Source: Bacteroidia bacterium (GTDB lineage: Bacteria; Bacteroidota; Bacteroidia; J057). Taken from it: 64,000 bases of DNA. Where the stretch lies: NCBI GenBank assembly GCA_022760475.1, contig JALEFZ010000008.1, forward strand, positions 1-64,000, given 5' to 3'. This document shows positions 37,945 to 56,114 of the stretch, in pieces. How positions within the stretch are numbered: position 1 is the first letter of the stretch; every line of letters starts with the position of its first letter. The notes beneath the pieces are model-generated. The model did no database searches. It had not been told where the DNA came from and saw only the letters and a program-made list of their open reading frames with translations. The position numbers and the translations under genes are program-made.

Positions 37945-39168
37945 ATGAGTAGACAAGTATATATTCTTGGAGCAGGCTTTTCCATACCCACAGGTGTTCC
38001 ATCCCAAATTGGATTAACCAAAGAATTGTTCAACTTCAAGTTTTCGAAAAAAGAGCTAGAAGGAGAGTTCCATATAGCGATGAAAACTCTCCTGGAAAAG
38101 CTTGAACAACTCAAGGATTTTCTTCAAGCGGAGTTCGGAATTGAGTTTGACGGGGAAACACAAGACGGCATGTCGTTTTATTTGGAAGACTTGTATACCC
38201 CACTTGATAGAGCAATTCAAGAAAATTCTTATTTAAGGACAATTCCTCCAGAAGATTTGCTAAAGTATAGGAGAGCCTTGGATTCAATTCTGGCAATAAT
38301 TCTAAAGAGAATCACTTCTAACCCAGATATTGATTTTATAAAAACTGAATACGTAGAGAAATTTGCCAGGTATATCGTTAAGAAAAGCCGTCAAGGAGCG
38401 GAAAGGCCTACTGAACCAAGTCCAGTATCTGTTGTAACCACCAATTGGGATACGATCCTCGACAAGATGTTGATGAAGGAATTGCTCACTGTTAATTCAC
38501 AAAAACCTAAAGGAAAAATAGATTACATCTGCCATATCGTAAATAATAGTGAGTACGTTCCAGTAGAACCTGGAATGTTAGCCATTGCAAAAGGTAACTT
38601 CACAGTCAAGCTGTTAAAAATACATGGGTCTACCAATTGGTTGCATTGCCCTAAATGCAGAAGGATATACCTGGATATTCGTCCTGAAGATATTTTTGAT
38701 GGGGAATTCAACCTAATCAAATGTTTTAACTGCAAGAAGTTTGAGGAACCAATCAAGAATCCCATTCTTCGAACCAGACTTTTGATGCCCACTTTCCTTA
38801 AGGATTTTAACAATTTCCAAACAAAGCTAATCTGGAATTACAGTGCAAAAGAAATTCGAGAAGCTGATGAAATAATTTTTATAGGATATTCCTTCCCAAT
38901 GGCCGATTTTGAATTTAGGCAATTGCTATTTAGACAGGTTCGCAAGCGGGCAAAAATTAAAGTTATTTTATATGAGGAAGAGAAAAGTGGCTTGGTGGTA
39001 ACATCGCAAAATTATAATGAAGCCTTATTGACGGGACTTTCAATTGAGAATGTGGCTGCTTTAAAAAGGTATTTGAGTTTTTTTGGAGGAAAAATTCACA
39101 ACAGAATTGAAATTAGATTTGAAGGGGTAAAAAGCTATGTTGATACACTTGAGTTAGTGGAGAATTAG
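37945..39168 (+). CDS. SIR2-like protein with zinc ribbon, next to tRNA
   Basis: A 407-residue protein of the SIR2-like superfamily. The NAD-binding start is VYILGAGFSIPTG; further sirtuin-type elements are VVTTNWDTILD (in place of TQNxDxL), KIHGSTNWLHCPKC with the second pair CFNCKKF forming a zinc ribbon, and IIFIGYSFPMADFEF. In bacteria such stand-alone proteins either act on NAD or belong to phage-defence modules; the first Asn-Asp pair of classical deacetylases (NID) is replaced by N-W-D. It is a single gene between tRNA-Val and a convergent housekeeping gene and is more AT-rich than its neighbours, as expected of an acquired gene. Confidence 0.85.
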   Translation: MSRQVYILGAGFSIPTGVPSQIGLTKELFNFKFSKKELEGEFHIAMKTLLEKLEQLKDFLQAEFGIEFDGETQDGMSFYLEDLYTPLDRAIQENSYLRTIPPEDLLKYRRALDSILAIILKRITSNPDIDFIKTEYVEKFARYIVKKSRQGAERPTEPSPVSVVTTNWDTILDKMLMKELLTVNSQKPKGKIDYICHIVNNSEYVPVEPGMLAIAKGNFTVKLLKIHGSTNWLHCPKCRRIYLDIRPEDIFDGEFNLIKCFNCKKFEEPIKNPILRTRLLMPTFLKDFNNFQTKLIWNYSAKEIREADEIIFIGYSFPMADFEFRQLLFRQVRKRAKIKVILYEEEKSGLVVTSQNYNEALLTGLSIENVAALKRYLSFFGGKIHNRIEIRFEGVKSYVDTLELVEN

Positions 39169-49971: not shown

Positions 49972-50388
49972 ATGAGGCATACCGTATCTATTAAAAGCAA
50001 TCCAGACCTGGAAGAAGTTAAGAAGTTGCTTGAGGAGGCCCTTCCTGAGTCCAATCCCCAGATAGGACAAGCCCGTTTTCCTTTGGGTCGCAGGCATATT
50101 TTTGCTAAATGGGAAGGAAAACTGATCTATATCTACAAAAAGGGAAAAGGATTGTTGGTTAAGGTTCCCGAACGAAGAACATATCAAAGTTATTTGGGAA
50201 CACTGATTGGCTTGATCTTGTGGATTTTTTATATAAAAAATAATGTTTTTTGGTTTCGGATAACATTTTTCTGTCTTGTAGTCGTAATTGTTGGGGGGAT
50301 ATTTGGCCTGGTTTTTAGGCAAAACAAGCCAGGACCAAATTTCGCAATGATAGTTGCCAATTACTTAAAAGACCACTTGGAGAAGTAG
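49972..50388 (+). CDS. Two-helix membrane protein downstream of gasdermin
   Basis: A 138-residue protein with an N-terminal soluble part (about 70 residues, LEEVKKLLEEALPESNP and ARFPLGRRHIFAKWEGK) and two membrane helices near residues 74-91 and 94-115. No family is recognised. It starts 21 bases after the gasdermin stop, so it is probably co-transcribed. It may control or be the partner of gasdermin at the membrane, for which no direct evidence exists. Confidence 0.75.
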   Translation: MRHTVSIKSNPDLEEVKKLLEEALPESNPQIGQARFPLGRRHIFAKWEGKLIYIYKKGKGLLVKVPERRTYQSYLGTLIGLILWIFYIKNNVFWFRITFFCLVVVIVGGIFGLVFRQNKPGPNFAMIVANYLKDHLEK

Positions 50389-50617
50389 AGACTTTACTAA
50401 CTCAAAAGCACCCTTTACTTCCATAATCCTATCTTCACTCCTTTTTGGGGCTTATTTACTTCCTCGATCACTTAGCTTTACTAAGTCATATCCAGTTTTC
50501 ACTTTGCCATAGTGGGACTTTACTTGATGGGCCAAATCCTGCTTTGATAGCTGCCGTATCTGTTTGTGTATCAGTTAGTAAAGACTGATAATTTAAAAAA
50601 CACACAGATCGACCGCT

Positions 50618-51166
50618 ATGAATTTTATGTCCAAATTTCAAATTCAACATCTCGAACGCTACTATCCAGGGCAGGTGTATATGAAGGGAGACCGCTTGGT
50701 ATTTCCTTCCTACCTCAACCGGAATAAGGGCTTCGAGCGCAACCGCCTCATCATAATTCTGGTTTTGCTCGGACTTTTTTTGGGAGGGCTTGTTTGGTGG
50801 AATGACTTTCCAGAAGAACTTGCCAGGATACACTTGTATTTTTACCTGATTGTATCCATACCCATGTTGGTCAAAGGTTTTGGTCGCTCCTACGAAATTG
50901 ACCTGCTCCATTCAAATTTTGAGGTGAAATACTTCGGTAGAACCCTCAAAAAGATTCCCATGAGAAGGTTTCTAAGGGTTGAATGCATAGACATCCATTC
51001 GCAGGAAGAATACATGCATACCCGAGTTGAAATTGTATTTACCAGAGGCCTTTCCAGACGGATCGGAAAATTCGGGGATCGCGCCTCAGCAAGTTTTTTA
51101 GCAAAATCTGTGGAATCAGTGGCTGAGGAAGCCAATAATCCCTTAAAGCCCGAATTTTTTAATTAA
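50618..51166 (+). CDS. Two-helix membrane protein with PH-like domain
   Basis: A 182-residue protein with two close membrane helices (about residues 42-60 and 70-86) after a basic segment, followed by a cytoplasmic beta-rich domain: YEIDLLHSNFEVKYFGRTLK, IPMRRFLRVECIDIH, RVEIVFTRGLSRRIG. This order of helices plus strands resembles bacterial PH (bPH) membrane proteins. The next gene has the same layout with the equivalents DIENGEYCILLFGRMFRR, IPLENVSKIHQT and VDLIGKWGKRREMI, so the two are distant paralogues. Preceded by a 229-base gap. Function unknown. Confidence 0.75.
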   Translation: MNFMSKFQIQHLERYYPGQVYMKGDRLVFPSYLNRNKGFERNRLIIILVLLGLFLGGLVWWNDFPEELARIHLYFYLIVSIPMLVKGFGRSYEIDLLHSNFEVKYFGRTLKKIPMRRFLRVECIDIHSQEEYMHTRVEIVFTRGLSRRIGKFGDRASASFLAKSVESVAEEANNPLKPEFFN

Positions 51167-51207
51167 CGAAGTCAAATTTTTCAAAAACACACCCAAAACC
51201 CAATATC

Positions 51208-51744
51208 ATGTACATTAAACTAATGAACGACCTACTTGAATTAGCCAAGCACTATCCGGATTACTTTTCAGTTGAAGGTTTAAAAATCCATTTCCATGGA
51301 AACCTCCATCGCAGCAAAAGAGTAGGCCTTATTGTTCTATCAGTATTCGCAGCCATTAGCCTTTCACTCTTTGTATTCATGTCAATTGCTTTATTTGAAG
51401 AAGGGGGACTACAGACTTCATTATTAATCCTTGCGGTAGGTTTGATGGTCAATGGCTTTCTATTTATCCCCATCATTGGCAAATCTGGTATCCTTGATAT
51501 TGAAAATGGAGAGTACTGCATTCTACTATTTGGACGTATGTTCAGGAGAATTCCCTTGGAGAATGTGAGTAAAATCCATCAAACCACCCAATATTACAAT
51601 GGGATTTATCAGGGGGTAAGCGTGGATCTAATTGGAAAATGGGGAAAAAGAAGGGAAATGATTCGCTTCAAAGACCAGAAAATCGCCAGAGAGATTGCCA
51701 CTGTGGCTGCTTTTGCCATGCAAAAGGCCAAAGGACTGGTATAA
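51208..51744 (+). CDS. Two-helix membrane protein with PH-like domain, paralogue
   Basis: A 178-residue protein with membrane helices near residues 41-60 and 68-90, then the same PH-like cytoplasmic pattern as the previous gene (GEYCILLFGRMFRRIPLENV, then GVSVDLIGKWGKRREMI). The shared pattern FGRxxRRIP is the best evidence that the two are related. The 41-base gap suggests co-transcription with the preceding gene. Unknown function, probably a structural or regulatory part of the gasdermin locus. Confidence 0.75.
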   Translation: MYIKLMNDLLELAKHYPDYFSVEGLKIHFHGNLHRSKRVGLIVLSVFAAISLSLFVFMSIALFEEGGLQTSLLILAVGLMVNGFLFIPIIGKSGILDIENGEYCILLFGRMFRRIPLENVSKIHQTTQYYNGIYQGVSVDLIGKWGKRREMIRFKDQKIAREIATVAAFAMQKAKGLV

Positions 51745-52075: not shown

Positions 52076-53413
52076 ATGTCTCCAATTATTTATTTGGCAT
52101 TTGCAAATAGTTCTGATAATCCGCTCTATCAATTATCCGCGGAGGAGCGCTCAATCAGAGAAATTCTCAGGGAGAGGTATGTAAATAAGGGGCATTTCCT
52201 GGTCGAGTCTAATTCTTACTCCAAACTTGATGATTTAAGGAAGGACCTCACCCAGTTTAAGGATCAGATTTTCCTGTTTCATTACAGTGGTCATGCAAGT
52301 GGCAAGAGTGTTCTGCTTCCCAGTGGAAGGGCAGCAGCAAGTGGCCTTGGGAAAATGCTGGGAGAACTCCCCAATTTGAAATTGGTTATCTTAAATGGCT
52401 GTGAGACGCAGGCCCAGGTTGATCAATTATTAGCCCTAGGTGTACCCGCTGTCATTGCTACTCATACCAAGATCGAAGATCGGTTGGCAAGGAAATTTTC
52501 CGAGCAATTCTATGAATCATTGGTTCAAGGCTATAGCATTGAAGAGGCATATACCCAATGGGTAAATTATCTGGAAACCCTGGGTGAGGATGCCAAGGCT
52601 ATTGTAAATCCCAGGGACCTGGAGGAGGATGACGACTACATTGAACAACTCAACCAATGGGGACTTTTTTATAAAAAAGGTGGTGCAGAGTCCTTACAGG
52701 CCACCTTGCCTAAGGTCTCTCCAAATGAAAAGAACAGGAAAAGGATTTATCTCCTTTTAGCGGGGGTACTGCTTGCTTTGGCTTCGCTTGGAGGGCTATC
52801 CATTTACAATTCTGTTCAGCCTTTTGACTTTGTTTTTGAAGTGGTAGATAGAGATGGGCAAGCCAGCCGGGCTTTGACAGGTGAACTTGACAAGCTAAAC
52901 ATGGAAGCGGGTGATTCCCTCATGATGATTGAAAAGGAAACCCCTGAGTTTAGTTTGACGCAGACTGATCCCCCCATCATGGGTAGGATCAATGTGGAAG
53001 GGAATATATATTTTGAGGATTTACCTCATTCCCTAAGAAATAATGCCTTGGGGTATTCCTTGAAATCCAAATACTATCAGGTGGCTGGTCGACCGGAAAG
53101 CATTAAAATGAAGGGAAATCGGGGAAAATTGACCATTGAGAGAACAGAAGTGCTGTGTTGTATAAAAGGGAGGGTACGGATATGGCCTGATTTGATTCCG
53201 CTTGAAGGTGCCACGGTTGTGTTTCAGGATACGGCAGTGAAGACAAATGCAGCAGGTTACTTTGAATTTCGGATACCTGAGCATGCGCAAAAGCGTATTC
53301 AAAAAGTCAGCATTTCTCATCCTGATATGAAAAGTACCCGTCATGAGAGCATTCAACCTGAATTGATATTCCAGGATAAAAGTCCTTGGGACATAAATGT
53401 AGACCCCAAATAA
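52076..53413 (+). CDS. Membrane-anchored CHAT protease with extracytoplasmic domain
   Basis: A 445-residue protein. Residues 1-200 are a CHAT (caspase-related) protease domain without signal peptide: catalytic His73 in LFHYSGHASGK and catalytic Cys109 in VILNGCETQAQ, with the helix GVPAVIATHTKIEDRLARKF typical of CHAT. One membrane helix spans about 224-244; basic residues RKR stand before it, so the protease faces the cytoplasm. The 200 residues outside end in a CarboxypepD-like domain (ICCIKG-type start at 361, LEGATVVFQDTAVKTNAAGY). Four following genes carry the same kind of domain in exported form. Its stop lies 22 bases before the first of them. I infer a signal-transducing protease that could cut the gasdermin in response to periplasmic events. 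Confidence 0.85.
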   Translation: MSPIIYLAFANSSDNPLYQLSAEERSIREILRERYVNKGHFLVESNSYSKLDDLRKDLTQFKDQIFLFHYSGHASGKSVLLPSGRAAASGLGKMLGELPNLKLVILNGCETQAQVDQLLALGVPAVIATHTKIEDRLARKFSEQFYESLVQGYSIEEAYTQWVNYLETLGEDAKAIVNPRDLEEDDDYIEQLNQWGLFYKKGGAESLQATLPKVSPNEKNRKRIYLLLAGVLLALASLGGLSIYNSVQPFDFVFEVVDRDGQASRALTGELDKLNMEAGDSLMMIEKETPEFSLTQTDPPIMGRINVEGNIYFEDLPHSLRNNALGYSLKSKYYQVAGRPESIKMKGNRGKLTIERTEVLCCIKGRVRIWPDLIPLEGATVVFQDTAVKTNAAGYFEFRIPEHAQKRIQKVSISHPDMKSTRHESIQPELIFQDKSPWDINVDPK

Positions 53414-53435: not shown

Positions 53436-56114
53436 ATGAGCCAAACACTGAAAACATATATCGGAATTCTTCTCTTGTCCTTGTTTTGGAAAAATGGAGT
53501 AAGTCAATACACCCAAAGTGGCATCATCACCCTTCAGAATTCTGGTAAAAAGGCTGTCGAGGGAGCTGAGATCGGAGCCCCTCCCTGGGGGAAGACCACG
53601 GTTACAGATAGCAAGGGGGACTTTGAACTGATTTTTTCTGGCAAAGGTGCCGGTTATGAGAGCTTTCTGAAAGTCAGGAAACCTGGATATGAGGTAGTCA
53701 ATAAGGAAGCCCTTTTTCATACCCTTACGGTAGAGGGGGAAGGTTTGAGCTTGTATATGTGTAAAGAAGGAGAGTGGCAGAAAAACGCCATTTTATACTA
53801 CGGAATCAATGAGAAAAACCTGACCCGAAGATATGAGGCGAAAATTGCCTCATTAAGGGTAAAAATGAGTGGTGAGCAGAGCAGCTTGACCGATAGCCTA
53901 AAGGGATTGCAAGCCAAATACGAGGCTGCTCTTAGCCAGGCCAAAACACTTGCGCAGAAATTTGCTACCACCAATCTGGATGACGTTTCGGATTTATACA
54001 ATGAAGCCTTTGCCCTTTTTAGAGAAGGAAAGATTGCCGCTTCTATTGAGGTTTTAAATGAAGATGCCTTGGATGAACAATACCGTAGAATCCAGAAGGA
54101 GATCAAAGATGGCAAGGAATGGATTACCATCGGGGAAGAGAAAAAGGCAATTGGTAAAGATGCGTTGGAAAGCGGGATCAAGAATTACCTATTGAGAGCA
54201 GAGCTGTTGACCATTGACCTTCGATTTGATGAAGCGGATCGGGCATATCGCAAGGCGGTGGATGCCGATACATCTAGGTGGGAAACTGCAGTTACATATG
54301 CCCAATTCTTGAATGGCCAAGGAAGGCATGAGGAGGCGGTAATTCAAAATAAAAAGGGACTAAGGTCGACAGAAAAATGGTTTGAAAAAGCCCTTTCGTT
54401 GAATGGGCTAGGCATATCATATTTTGAACTGGGAGAGTTTGGTTTGGCGAAAGAGGAATTTGAAAAAGCCATTGACTGTTTTGGTGAAAAAGCAGAGTTT
54501 CTATTTTTTTCACCAGGTAAAACCCATGTCGGTTTTATTCACATCTATACAACTGCCTTGGGAAATCTTTCAAGCTGTTACCTTATTGAAAATAATTTGG
54601 GGAAGGCTAAAGAGTTAATGAAGGAAGTCATAAAGATTTCAGGGCTATTAGAAGTCAAACCCGGGATGGTCCAATTGTCAACAAAAACTGACCTATCCAT
54701 TCTTTATCCATCGGCAAATTTCTTCAATTATTTTCAGTTAGGCGAATTATTCCTCCTAAGTAACCAGCCTGATTCTGCAATTCTCTATTCGAATAAAGGA
54801 TTGGCATATGTAGACCAGTTAATGGCTTTCAATTCCTACCAGTATGAGCCTAAGAAAGCCCTTTATTATGACTTATTAGGTAAGGCACACTTAAGTAGGC
54901 GGAATCTCAATGAAGCAAAAAACTCTTTCGAAATAGCTGTTCGCCTTACAAGAGAATTGGAGGAAAAGAATCCAGGTGTTCATGGATTAAGTTTAGCCCA
55001 ATCGTTAACAAATTTAGGTACGGTCTATTTACAAATGAATGTCCATGATAGTGTTTTATCACTTTGCCTAGAAGCGAAAAAGATTTATGAAGAGATCGAT
55101 GTTACAGGCGTTGAAATTCAAGGGAAGAGCAGGGTGTATGAGTGTTTGGGGACTGTTTATAACGCCCAAAAAAAGTTTGGACTTGGTTTAGAGCAGTACT
55201 TGAAGGCGATAGAATTAATTGAAGATTCTAATACAGAGAAAAAAGGCAGGTATCTCGCTTATTATGGAAAACTCAAGATAAATATAGGTTGGAGTTATTT
55301 TGAACTTAAAAAGTATGAAGAATCTTCAAGGATAATCAAGGAAGGTATAAATATATTAAGGCCTATCTCAATGGGGCAAAATGGGTTGGTAAATAGCTCT
55401 CTTCTTTTGGGATACGAAATTCTTGCAGTTATTGCTCATAATGACTACGCTCCTAAAGAGGCAGAATTTGCGCTGCTAAAAGCTGATTCCATAATCAAGC
55501 AAACACCTTCTGCTCCTAATTCTAAACAAGAGAAAAGATATTTGCAACGAAATAAGTATGGCGTCAGCCTTGATATAAGACACTTTTTACAAGACAACTA
55601 TATTGCAAAATATATTTCTATAAAGAAAAACTACTTCACCTATATCACTGCGACCAAATTCAAAACACTAAAGAAAGAAACAGATTTAAAGGAATTAATA
55701 AACCAACAGAAAGTCATTGCGGCTGGCTTTGAAAAGTACAGTGGAAAATATTTACAAGAAAAGGCATATAGGCATGCCATGTCAGATATTTATGGGACTC
55801 TGGCATGGTATCAGCTATTGGATAGAAACTACGAAGCTGCACTGGAAGCAGCTAATGTCAGCACCAAATTGGAACCGTTAATGAATACGGCACTTTTGGT
55901 GAAGATGCACCTGAATTTCATTGAAAAGGATCCGAATACATATTTTTCAAGCTATATATCTATGGCCTATATGCCACCCTTGATCAAAGACTATAGCTGG
56001 GGGAAAATTATCATCAACGACCTGGAGGAACTGGACTCAAGGGGCTTGATTCCAGAAGACAGGAAGCACTACATTAGCCAAATCAAGCAGATCATTAAGC
56101 AGAAAAAGCCATGA
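53436..56114 (+). CDS. Exported CarboxypepD-coiled coil-TPR protein, paralogue 1
   Basis: An 892-residue exported protein (signal peptide ending KNGVSQ). Residues about 28-115 are a CarboxypepD-like domain (GIITLQNSGKKAVEGAEIG, SKGDFELIFSGKGAGYESFL, KPGYEVVNKEALFHTL, SLYMCKEGEWQKNAILYY). A coiled coil follows to about 175, ending in ATTNLDDVSDLYNEAF, which is a near-identical hallmark in all four paralogues. TPR-type repeats fill the rest, for example FDEADRAYRKAVDADTSRWE, and the C-terminal module (NYFTYITATKFKTLK, WGKIIINDLEELDSRGLIPE) is shared with the next protein. It overlaps the next gene by 4 bases. Periplasmic sensor or scaffold is my inference. Confidence 0.85.
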   Translation: MSQTLKTYIGILLLSLFWKNGVSQYTQSGIITLQNSGKKAVEGAEIGAPPWGKTTVTDSKGDFELIFSGKGAGYESFLKVRKPGYEVVNKEALFHTLTVEGEGLSLYMCKEGEWQKNAILYYGINEKNLTRRYEAKIASLRVKMSGEQSSLTDSLKGLQAKYEAALSQAKTLAQKFATTNLDDVSDLYNEAFALFREGKIAASIEVLNEDALDEQYRRIQKEIKDGKEWITIGEEKKAIGKDALESGIKNYLLRAELLTIDLRFDEADRAYRKAVDADTSRWETAVTYAQFLNGQGRHEEAVIQNKKGLRSTEKWFEKALSLNGLGISYFELGEFGLAKEEFEKAIDCFGEKAEFLFFSPGKTHVGFIHIYTTALGNLSSCYLIENNLGKAKELMKEVIKISGLLEVKPGMVQLSTKTDLSILYPSANFFNYFQLGELFLLSNQPDSAILYSNKGLAYVDQLMAFNSYQYEPKKALYYDLLGKAHLSRRNLNEAKNSFEIAVRLTRELEEKNPGVHGLSLAQSLTNLGTVYLQMNVHDSVLSLCLEAKKIYEEIDVTGVEIQGKSRVYECLGTVYNAQKKFGLGLEQYLKAIELIEDSNTEKKGRYLAYYGKLKINIGWSYFELKKYEESSRIIKEGINILRPISMGQNGLVNSSLLLGYEILAVIAHNDYAPKEAEFALLKADSIIKQTPSAPNSKQEKRYLQRNKYGVSLDIRHFLQDNYIAKYISIKKNYFTYITATKFKTLKKETDLKELINQQKVIAAGFEKYSGKYLQEKAYRHAMSDIYGTLAWYQLLDRNYEAALEAANVSTKLEPLMNTALLVKMHLNFIEKDPNTYFSSYISMAYMPPLIKDYSWGKIIINDLEELDSRGLIPEDRKHYISQIKQIIKQKKP

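Follow-up and report, generated by a model that had tools for sequence, protein, structure and literature searches.

CHAT and EAD systems have mostly been described as cytosolic responders to invasion, and TPR-CHAT proteases carry their fused tetratricopeptide repeats (TPRs) in the cytosol; FecR-type membrane anti-sigma signalling offers a comparison on the membrane side. According to Kaur et al. (2020; PMC7159879), EAD coupling proceeds either by fusion of the effector directly to a core component or by its recruitment via an adaptor, and in the EACC1-caspase systems the helix of the membrane protein is flanked at either end by a short extension, with the caspase as a separate protein. The Dma proteins of Bacteroidota are characterized by a disordered tether and a C-terminal beta-barrel (PMC13088901). 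Here, a gene is described whose product, P0001, joins a CHAT domain to a transmembrane (TM) helix and an outer region that ends in a CarboxypepD-like (CarbD) domain. The gene lies in a stretch of 64,000 nucleotides from a Bacteroidia bacterium (GCA_022760475.1, contig JALEFZ010000008.1, positions 1 to 64,000, forward strand), hereafter the window. P0001 is interpreted from its sequence, with moderate confidence, as the membrane transducer of a modular outside-in system in Bacteroidota that has a CHAT protease as its output.

Domain Architecture and Topology of P0001

The P0001 gene starts with ATG, and its open frame totals only 448 amino acids (aa), which leaves little room for a longer N-terminus. 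Residues 22-161 match the CHAT family in Pfam (PF12770, E 5.2e-9, 36.4 bits, cut-off 24), and the sole PDB sequence match under E 0.01 is 8tl0, a "CHAT domain-containing protein" (E 1.1e-4). In the CHAT alignment, His73 and Cys109, which we take to be the catalytic dyad, align with the dyad of the relatives and are both intact. Both residues are retained in 18 of the 21 aligned CHATs, the exceptions being L168, L172a, and L172b. By profile and dyad, P0001 thus appears to be a member of the CHAT proteases, with putative protease activity. No match was found at E 0.01 in PADLOC or NCBIfam, and a Pfam scan of the protein detected no EAD. A viral origin was rejected, as no relative of P0001 was found among viral contigs. 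The same genome encodes, at L172 (2170-3952), two tail-anchored CHAT-TM proteins that have degraded dyads and no outer domain.

Exactly one hydrophobic helix was identified, at about residues 224-244; the best 19-residue hydropathy window (2.13) lies at 226-244, and the runner-up anywhere in the protein reaches 1.1. The 15 residues on the N-side of the helix contain five K/R and one D/E, whereas those on the C-side contain one K/R and three D/E, and this positive charge bias places the CHAT end inside. Hydropathy revealed no hydrophobic stretch near the N-terminus and no signal peptide. On hydropathy and charge only, P0001 is predicted to fit a single-pass inner-membrane receptor with an N-inside helix and a soluble outer domain, made without a signal peptide. 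An earlier note on this DNA had proposed a cytoplasmic CHAT domain followed by one helix at 224-244, and these data agree with it; the charge bias speaks against a CHAT domain on the outside.

The outer part comprises 201 residues. Its last ~80 residues (about 363-445) form the CarbD-like portion, whereas the first ~115 (246-362) constitute a separate region with no domain match, so that the CarbD-like character ascribed earlier to all of the ~200 outer residues is retained for the terminal portion, by its profile match to the TPR heads described below, and is lost for the rest. P0001 alone matches CarboxypepD (PF13620) weakly, at E 0.005 and 17.6 bits, under the curated cut-off of 32.3, and the assignment is therefore drawn from the family and not from its own score. 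Among the relatives, the L107 transducer scores 44.1 bits, above the cut-off, and those of L103 (31.8 bits) and L109 (29.7 bits) fall slightly under it. The family profile, A4, matched the N-terminal domains of SusC/RagA/TonB receptors in PDB (6ytc, E 6.5e-5; 6sli, 9e-5; 5t3r, 5.6e-4), as well as the heads of the exported TPR proteins encoded downstream of P0001 (hhalign 95.1%, E 2.9e-8, 66 columns).

Exported TPR Proteins in the Same Operon

P0001 and four genes for exported, CarbD-headed TPR proteins form an operon with successive gaps of 22, -4, -4, and 50 bp (Table 1). All four TPR proteins open with a signal-peptide-like segment that is followed by the CarbD head. In the modelled head of TPR protein 1, strands at 24-110 are followed by long helices and then by TPR helices. 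This model is usable, with a predicted local distance difference test score (pLDDT) of 77.3 and a predicted template modelling score (pTM) of 0.36. Its Foldseek matches were mostly generic TPRs or designed helical proteins, and the SusC N-terminal domain 9hfj (TMt 0.68) was one of the six matches at E <= 0.001. Pair identity among the TPR proteins of the window drops from 45-64% in the CarbD head to 23-33% in the repeats, and such a drop was present in all three arrays compared (window, L103, and L104). Judged by pair identity, the heads are conserved and the repeats have diverged.

Table 1. Coordinates of the P0001 operon and of neighbouring genes in the window.
Feature	Position	Strand	Basis or remark
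P0001, CHAT - TM helix - outer region - CarbD-like domain, 445 aa	52076..53413	+	Pfam, hydropathy, charge bias, dyad alignment
Exported TPR protein 1, 892 aa, CarbD head, long helices, TPRs	53436..56114	+	Starts 22 bp past the CHAT gene
Exported TPR protein 2, 1108 aa	56111..59437	+	Overlaps preceding gene
Exported TPR protein 3, 823 aa	59434..61905	+	Overlaps preceding gene
Exported TPR protein 4, 471 aa	61956..63371	+	Fourth array gene
Three small open reading frames (ORFs) with hydrophobic segments (138, 182, 178 aa)	49972..51744	+	Between gasdermin and CHAT gene
Bacterial gasdermin, 286 aa	49090..49950	+	PADLOC bGSDM E 2.4e-47; NCBIfam prok_gasdermin 137.6 bits, cut-off 100
C14 caspase, 860 aa	42920..45502	-	Has C14 homologues adjoining gasdermin in two relatives

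Related Loci and Exchange of the Cytosolic Module

Searches with profiles of either the outer half or the heads covered the order (22 genomes), the class (395), the phylum (395), and family f15 (45), plus named genomes, which were metagenome-assembled genomes of Saprospiraceae and Bacteroidales. This yielded 14 distinct loci with an exported CarbD-headed gene. A TM-outer-CarbD gene was located directly upstream of the exported gene in 10 of these (the window, L033, L034, L037, L103, L104, L106, L107, L108, and L109, of which L107 and L108 are near-identical), with gaps of about -37 to +37 bp. At L032 (7376-12109), a 1577-aa chain with up to three helices and TPRs contains two CarbDs, one at residue 1092 and one of the TPR-head type at 1190, and its gene overlaps a CHAT gene by 8 bp. 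The shared gene order at a second CHAT-TM-CarbD locus (L033) and at eight others (L034, L037, L103, L104, and L106-L109) led us to reject a chance fusion or misassembly of P0001.

The outer length is 176-201 aa in all 11 transducers, and in 10 of them K/R residues are more numerous before the helix than after it, with a tie in one, whereas the N-terminal module varies. EAD11 occupies this position in L034, L037, L107, and L108, with PF19964 E-values of 1.6e-20, 4.7e-19, and 1.6e-18 in the three scanned, L108 being assigned by its near-identity to L107. HEPN_STY4199 was found in L103 and L104 (E 4e-35 and 2.5e-35), and L106 has an unassigned helical module. The L109 transducer lies beside a sigma-70 region 4 gene and has an anti-sigma-like module, a label taken from the layout only; its exported partner is a CarbD-headed C14 caspase and not a TPR protein. 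The locus (L109:8596-11194) belongs to a Bacteroidales genome, and its caspase is apparently on the outer side.

Several of these modules have a context of conflict systems. The genome of the window holds the EAD11 sister locus L037 and a large EAD11 repertoire (35 matches, 29 above the cut-off), including EAD11-TIR, EAD11-NB-ARC, EAD11-TM-NlpC (NlpC/P60), and EAD11-CHAT fusions; one of its EAD11-CHATs lacks the His, and in the other the EAD11 is under the cut-off. Next to the HEPN transducers is a gene with similarity to the C-terminal portion of CHAT proteins (in L104, BLASTP E 9e-18), and in L104 an nSTAND1 NTPase comes after it.

In a small CHAT tree, the L033 CHAT groups with that of L017 (0.89) inside a clade at 0.96, apart from P0001, whose own placement is weak (0.51). 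In an equally small tree of the outer halves, P0001 and L033 are also separated (0.86). CHAT was therefore probably captured twice, independently, onto the TM-outer half. In searches for a wider spread, profile A2 matched 7 of the 395 class genomes, and profile A5 matched 3 of the 395 phylum genomes (the genome of the window and two others, these in the coil/TPR part only), with just six or seven candidates scored per genome in both counts, so that misses are possible. A5 also matched 2 of the 45 genomes of family f15, and the L109 transducer matched 2 of 395 genomes, own included. More distant three-helix proteins with a similar outer part were observed at L140-L143; an exported gene comes next in L141 and L142, and L143 has a long N-terminal region ahead of the three helices.

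Proposed Mechanism of Outside-In Signalling

Domain make-up, predicted topology, the intact dyad, gene order, module swapping, and one CarbD-CarbD fusion can be read from the loci above. Contact between the CarbDs, the direction of the signal, proteolysis, the substrate, and the biological role are what we infer. In the proposed scheme, the exported TPR proteins, with their conserved CarbD/coiled-coil head and diverged repeats, would sample the periplasm, and the head of a TPR protein would touch the CarbD end of P0001. The signal would then travel from the outer domain through the single helix to the cytosolic CHAT, which would be switched on or off and would cut a cytosolic protein, most likely within a counter-invader or regulated-death response. 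In sister transducers, the EAD11 adaptor would presumably bring in effectors that themselves carry EAD11, for instance TIR or CHAT, and elsewhere the output may be HEPN or, next to a sigma factor, anti-sigma-like. The earlier note had suggested a protease that signals across the inner membrane. The topology, the common CarbD type, and the operon fit this suggestion, and the signalling itself, which is presumed, is strengthened because cytosolic modules (EAD11, HEPN, and anti-sigma-like) swap on the same outer half.

Several findings weigh against this scheme. CarbD is very common in Bacteroidota, and A4 matched 188 of 395 genomes at E 1e-6, mostly in the CarbD part only; similarity between CarbDs therefore does not prove contact. 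In hhalign, A4 matched a TonB-receptor CarbD at 5.4% (E 0.0071), and the contrast with the TPR heads is confounded by alignment depth (17 rows vs. 1). The AlphaFold2 model of the P0001 outer half, based on four rows, is unreliable (pLDDT 46.5), and the CarbD resemblance anticipated by the earlier note is a profile match, in the C-terminal part. Furthermore, three of the 14 head loci (L035, L036, and L105) have no adjacent transducer, and the L038 transducer has neither a CHAT domain nor a neighbouring TPR gene. The known CHAT forms number just two, the window and L033, and L033 is split by a frame change, with its TPR gene running off a 4.1-kb contig.

Gasdermin and C14 Caspase in the Window

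A gasdermin gene is located 2.1 kb upstream of P0001 on the same strand, which raises the alternative that an outside signal makes CHAT cut the autoinhibitory tail of this gasdermin, leading to pores and cell death, as a bacterial counterpart of a death receptor. In Podospora, a gasdermin is activated by a TPR-bearing CHAT protease (PMC12881547), and genome G005 likewise has a CHAT gene ~5 kb from gasdermin, encoding 1682 aa that include an NTPase-like region. Two of the three gasdermin loci thus have a CHAT gene no more than ~5 kb away, which is suggestive but may reflect the clustering of defence genes. On the other hand, gasdermin was detected in three of 22 genomes, own included, and both relatives have, directly beside it, a C14 caspase that is a homologue of that in the window. 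The gasdermin of the window therefore most likely belongs with C14, which is the likelier gasdermin protease, and gasdermin as a target of CHAT is a hypothesis only. In the window, neither C14 nor CHAT adjoins gasdermin directly, both being a few kb away. The caspase gene is 3.6 kb from gasdermin on the opposite strand, with a LytTR regulator, a histidine kinase, and a 165-aa gene in between, and the CHAT operon is separated from gasdermin by the three small ORFs and a 331-bp gap. Moreover, no gasdermin match was found in the other transducer genomes (G004, G010, G338, G391, and the genomes of L107-L109). We regard a direct gasdermin trigger as a bold and unlikely alternative. Unlikely too is the wider proposal of a bacterial death receptor, in which interchangeable TPR repeats would act on the CarbD transducer, CHAT would open the neighbouring gasdermin in an outside-in pyroptosis, and sister receptors would recruit like effectors via EAD11.

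In both relatives (L199 and L200), gasdermin and C14 are adjacent genes, with a large exported sensor-like gene close by. A conserved membrane protein upstream of the transducers was considered and rejected, as the 178-aa ORF at 51208-51744 has no similarity to the 186-aa gene before the L034 transducer. The window also contains a SIR2-like gene (37945-39168, + strand; PADLOC SIR2 models, E 1.4e-10).

Anchoring and Chance Neighbourhood

The helix and CarbD may instead only tether CHAT to the envelope or to a scaffold, with the TPR proteins as periplasmic scaffold and no transmembrane signal. CarbD and TPR are common binding modules, and the tail-anchored CHAT-TM proteins of the same genome, which have no outer domain, are in line with such tethering. 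However, an outer half of 176-201 residues is maintained across swapped modules, among them an anti-sigma-like one next to a sigma factor, and proteins of that class normally pass on external signals. The combination of conserved heads with diverged repeats also argues against a simple scaffold. Anchoring alone is accordingly regarded as unlikely. It is very improbable that the CHAT-TM gene lies beside the TPR array by coincidence, the two having nothing but a common domain to link them: CarbD is indeed widespread and three of the 14 head loci lack a transducer, but at 10 of the 14 loci the two genes stand within ~40 bp of each other, and an 11th has them fused.

Comparison With Known Systems

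If transmembrane signalling by P0001 is true, bacteria could launch effector or death pathways from beyond the inner membrane, in the manner of metazoan death receptors, and a single outer half of fixed design, paired with its own exported TPR proteins, would serve a protease, adaptor, HEPN, or anti-sigma-like output. Two questions become testable: the way in which CHAT proteases are switched across a membrane, and the targets recognised by periplasmic TPR arrays. A literature search covering titles and abstract starts, with subscription papers mostly outside its scope, found no description of a CHAT-TM-CarbD transducer. The joining of CHAT, a membrane helix, and exported TPR partners, as predicted here, was thus not encountered in the partial literature surveyed, the closest kinds being EAD/CHAT conflict systems and transmembrane signalling.

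The loci resemble the EAD/EACC1-caspase systems in their caspase-superfamily effectors, in the interchange of EAD with direct fusion, and in the proposal of a membrane sensor that activates a protease (Kaur et al., 2020; neither EAD11 nor carboxypeptidase is mentioned in its main text). Unlike EACC1, P0001 has CHAT fused to the helix, ~200 outer residues, and exported TPR partners. The order of cytosolic regulator, one helix, and periplasmic part is that of the Dma membrane anti-sigma family (PMC13088901), and the L109 layout, beside a sigma factor, is the nearest to it; in contrast to Dma, the P0001 system has a CarbD end, exported partners, and a protease output. Like bacterial gasdermin-caspase systems (PMC9079055, a commentary on Johnson et al., 2022), the window has a gasdermin and a C14 caspase, here near the operon, but nothing indicates that CHAT replaces the caspase. 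P0001 shares the CHAT domain, and TPRs as the sensor module, with the TPR-CHAT proteases, such as Craspase Csx29 and the fungal CHAT-gasdermin pairs (PMC12881547). Unlike in those proteases, where the TPRs are fused to CHAT, the TPRs here are exported and would face CHAT as separate chains across the membrane.
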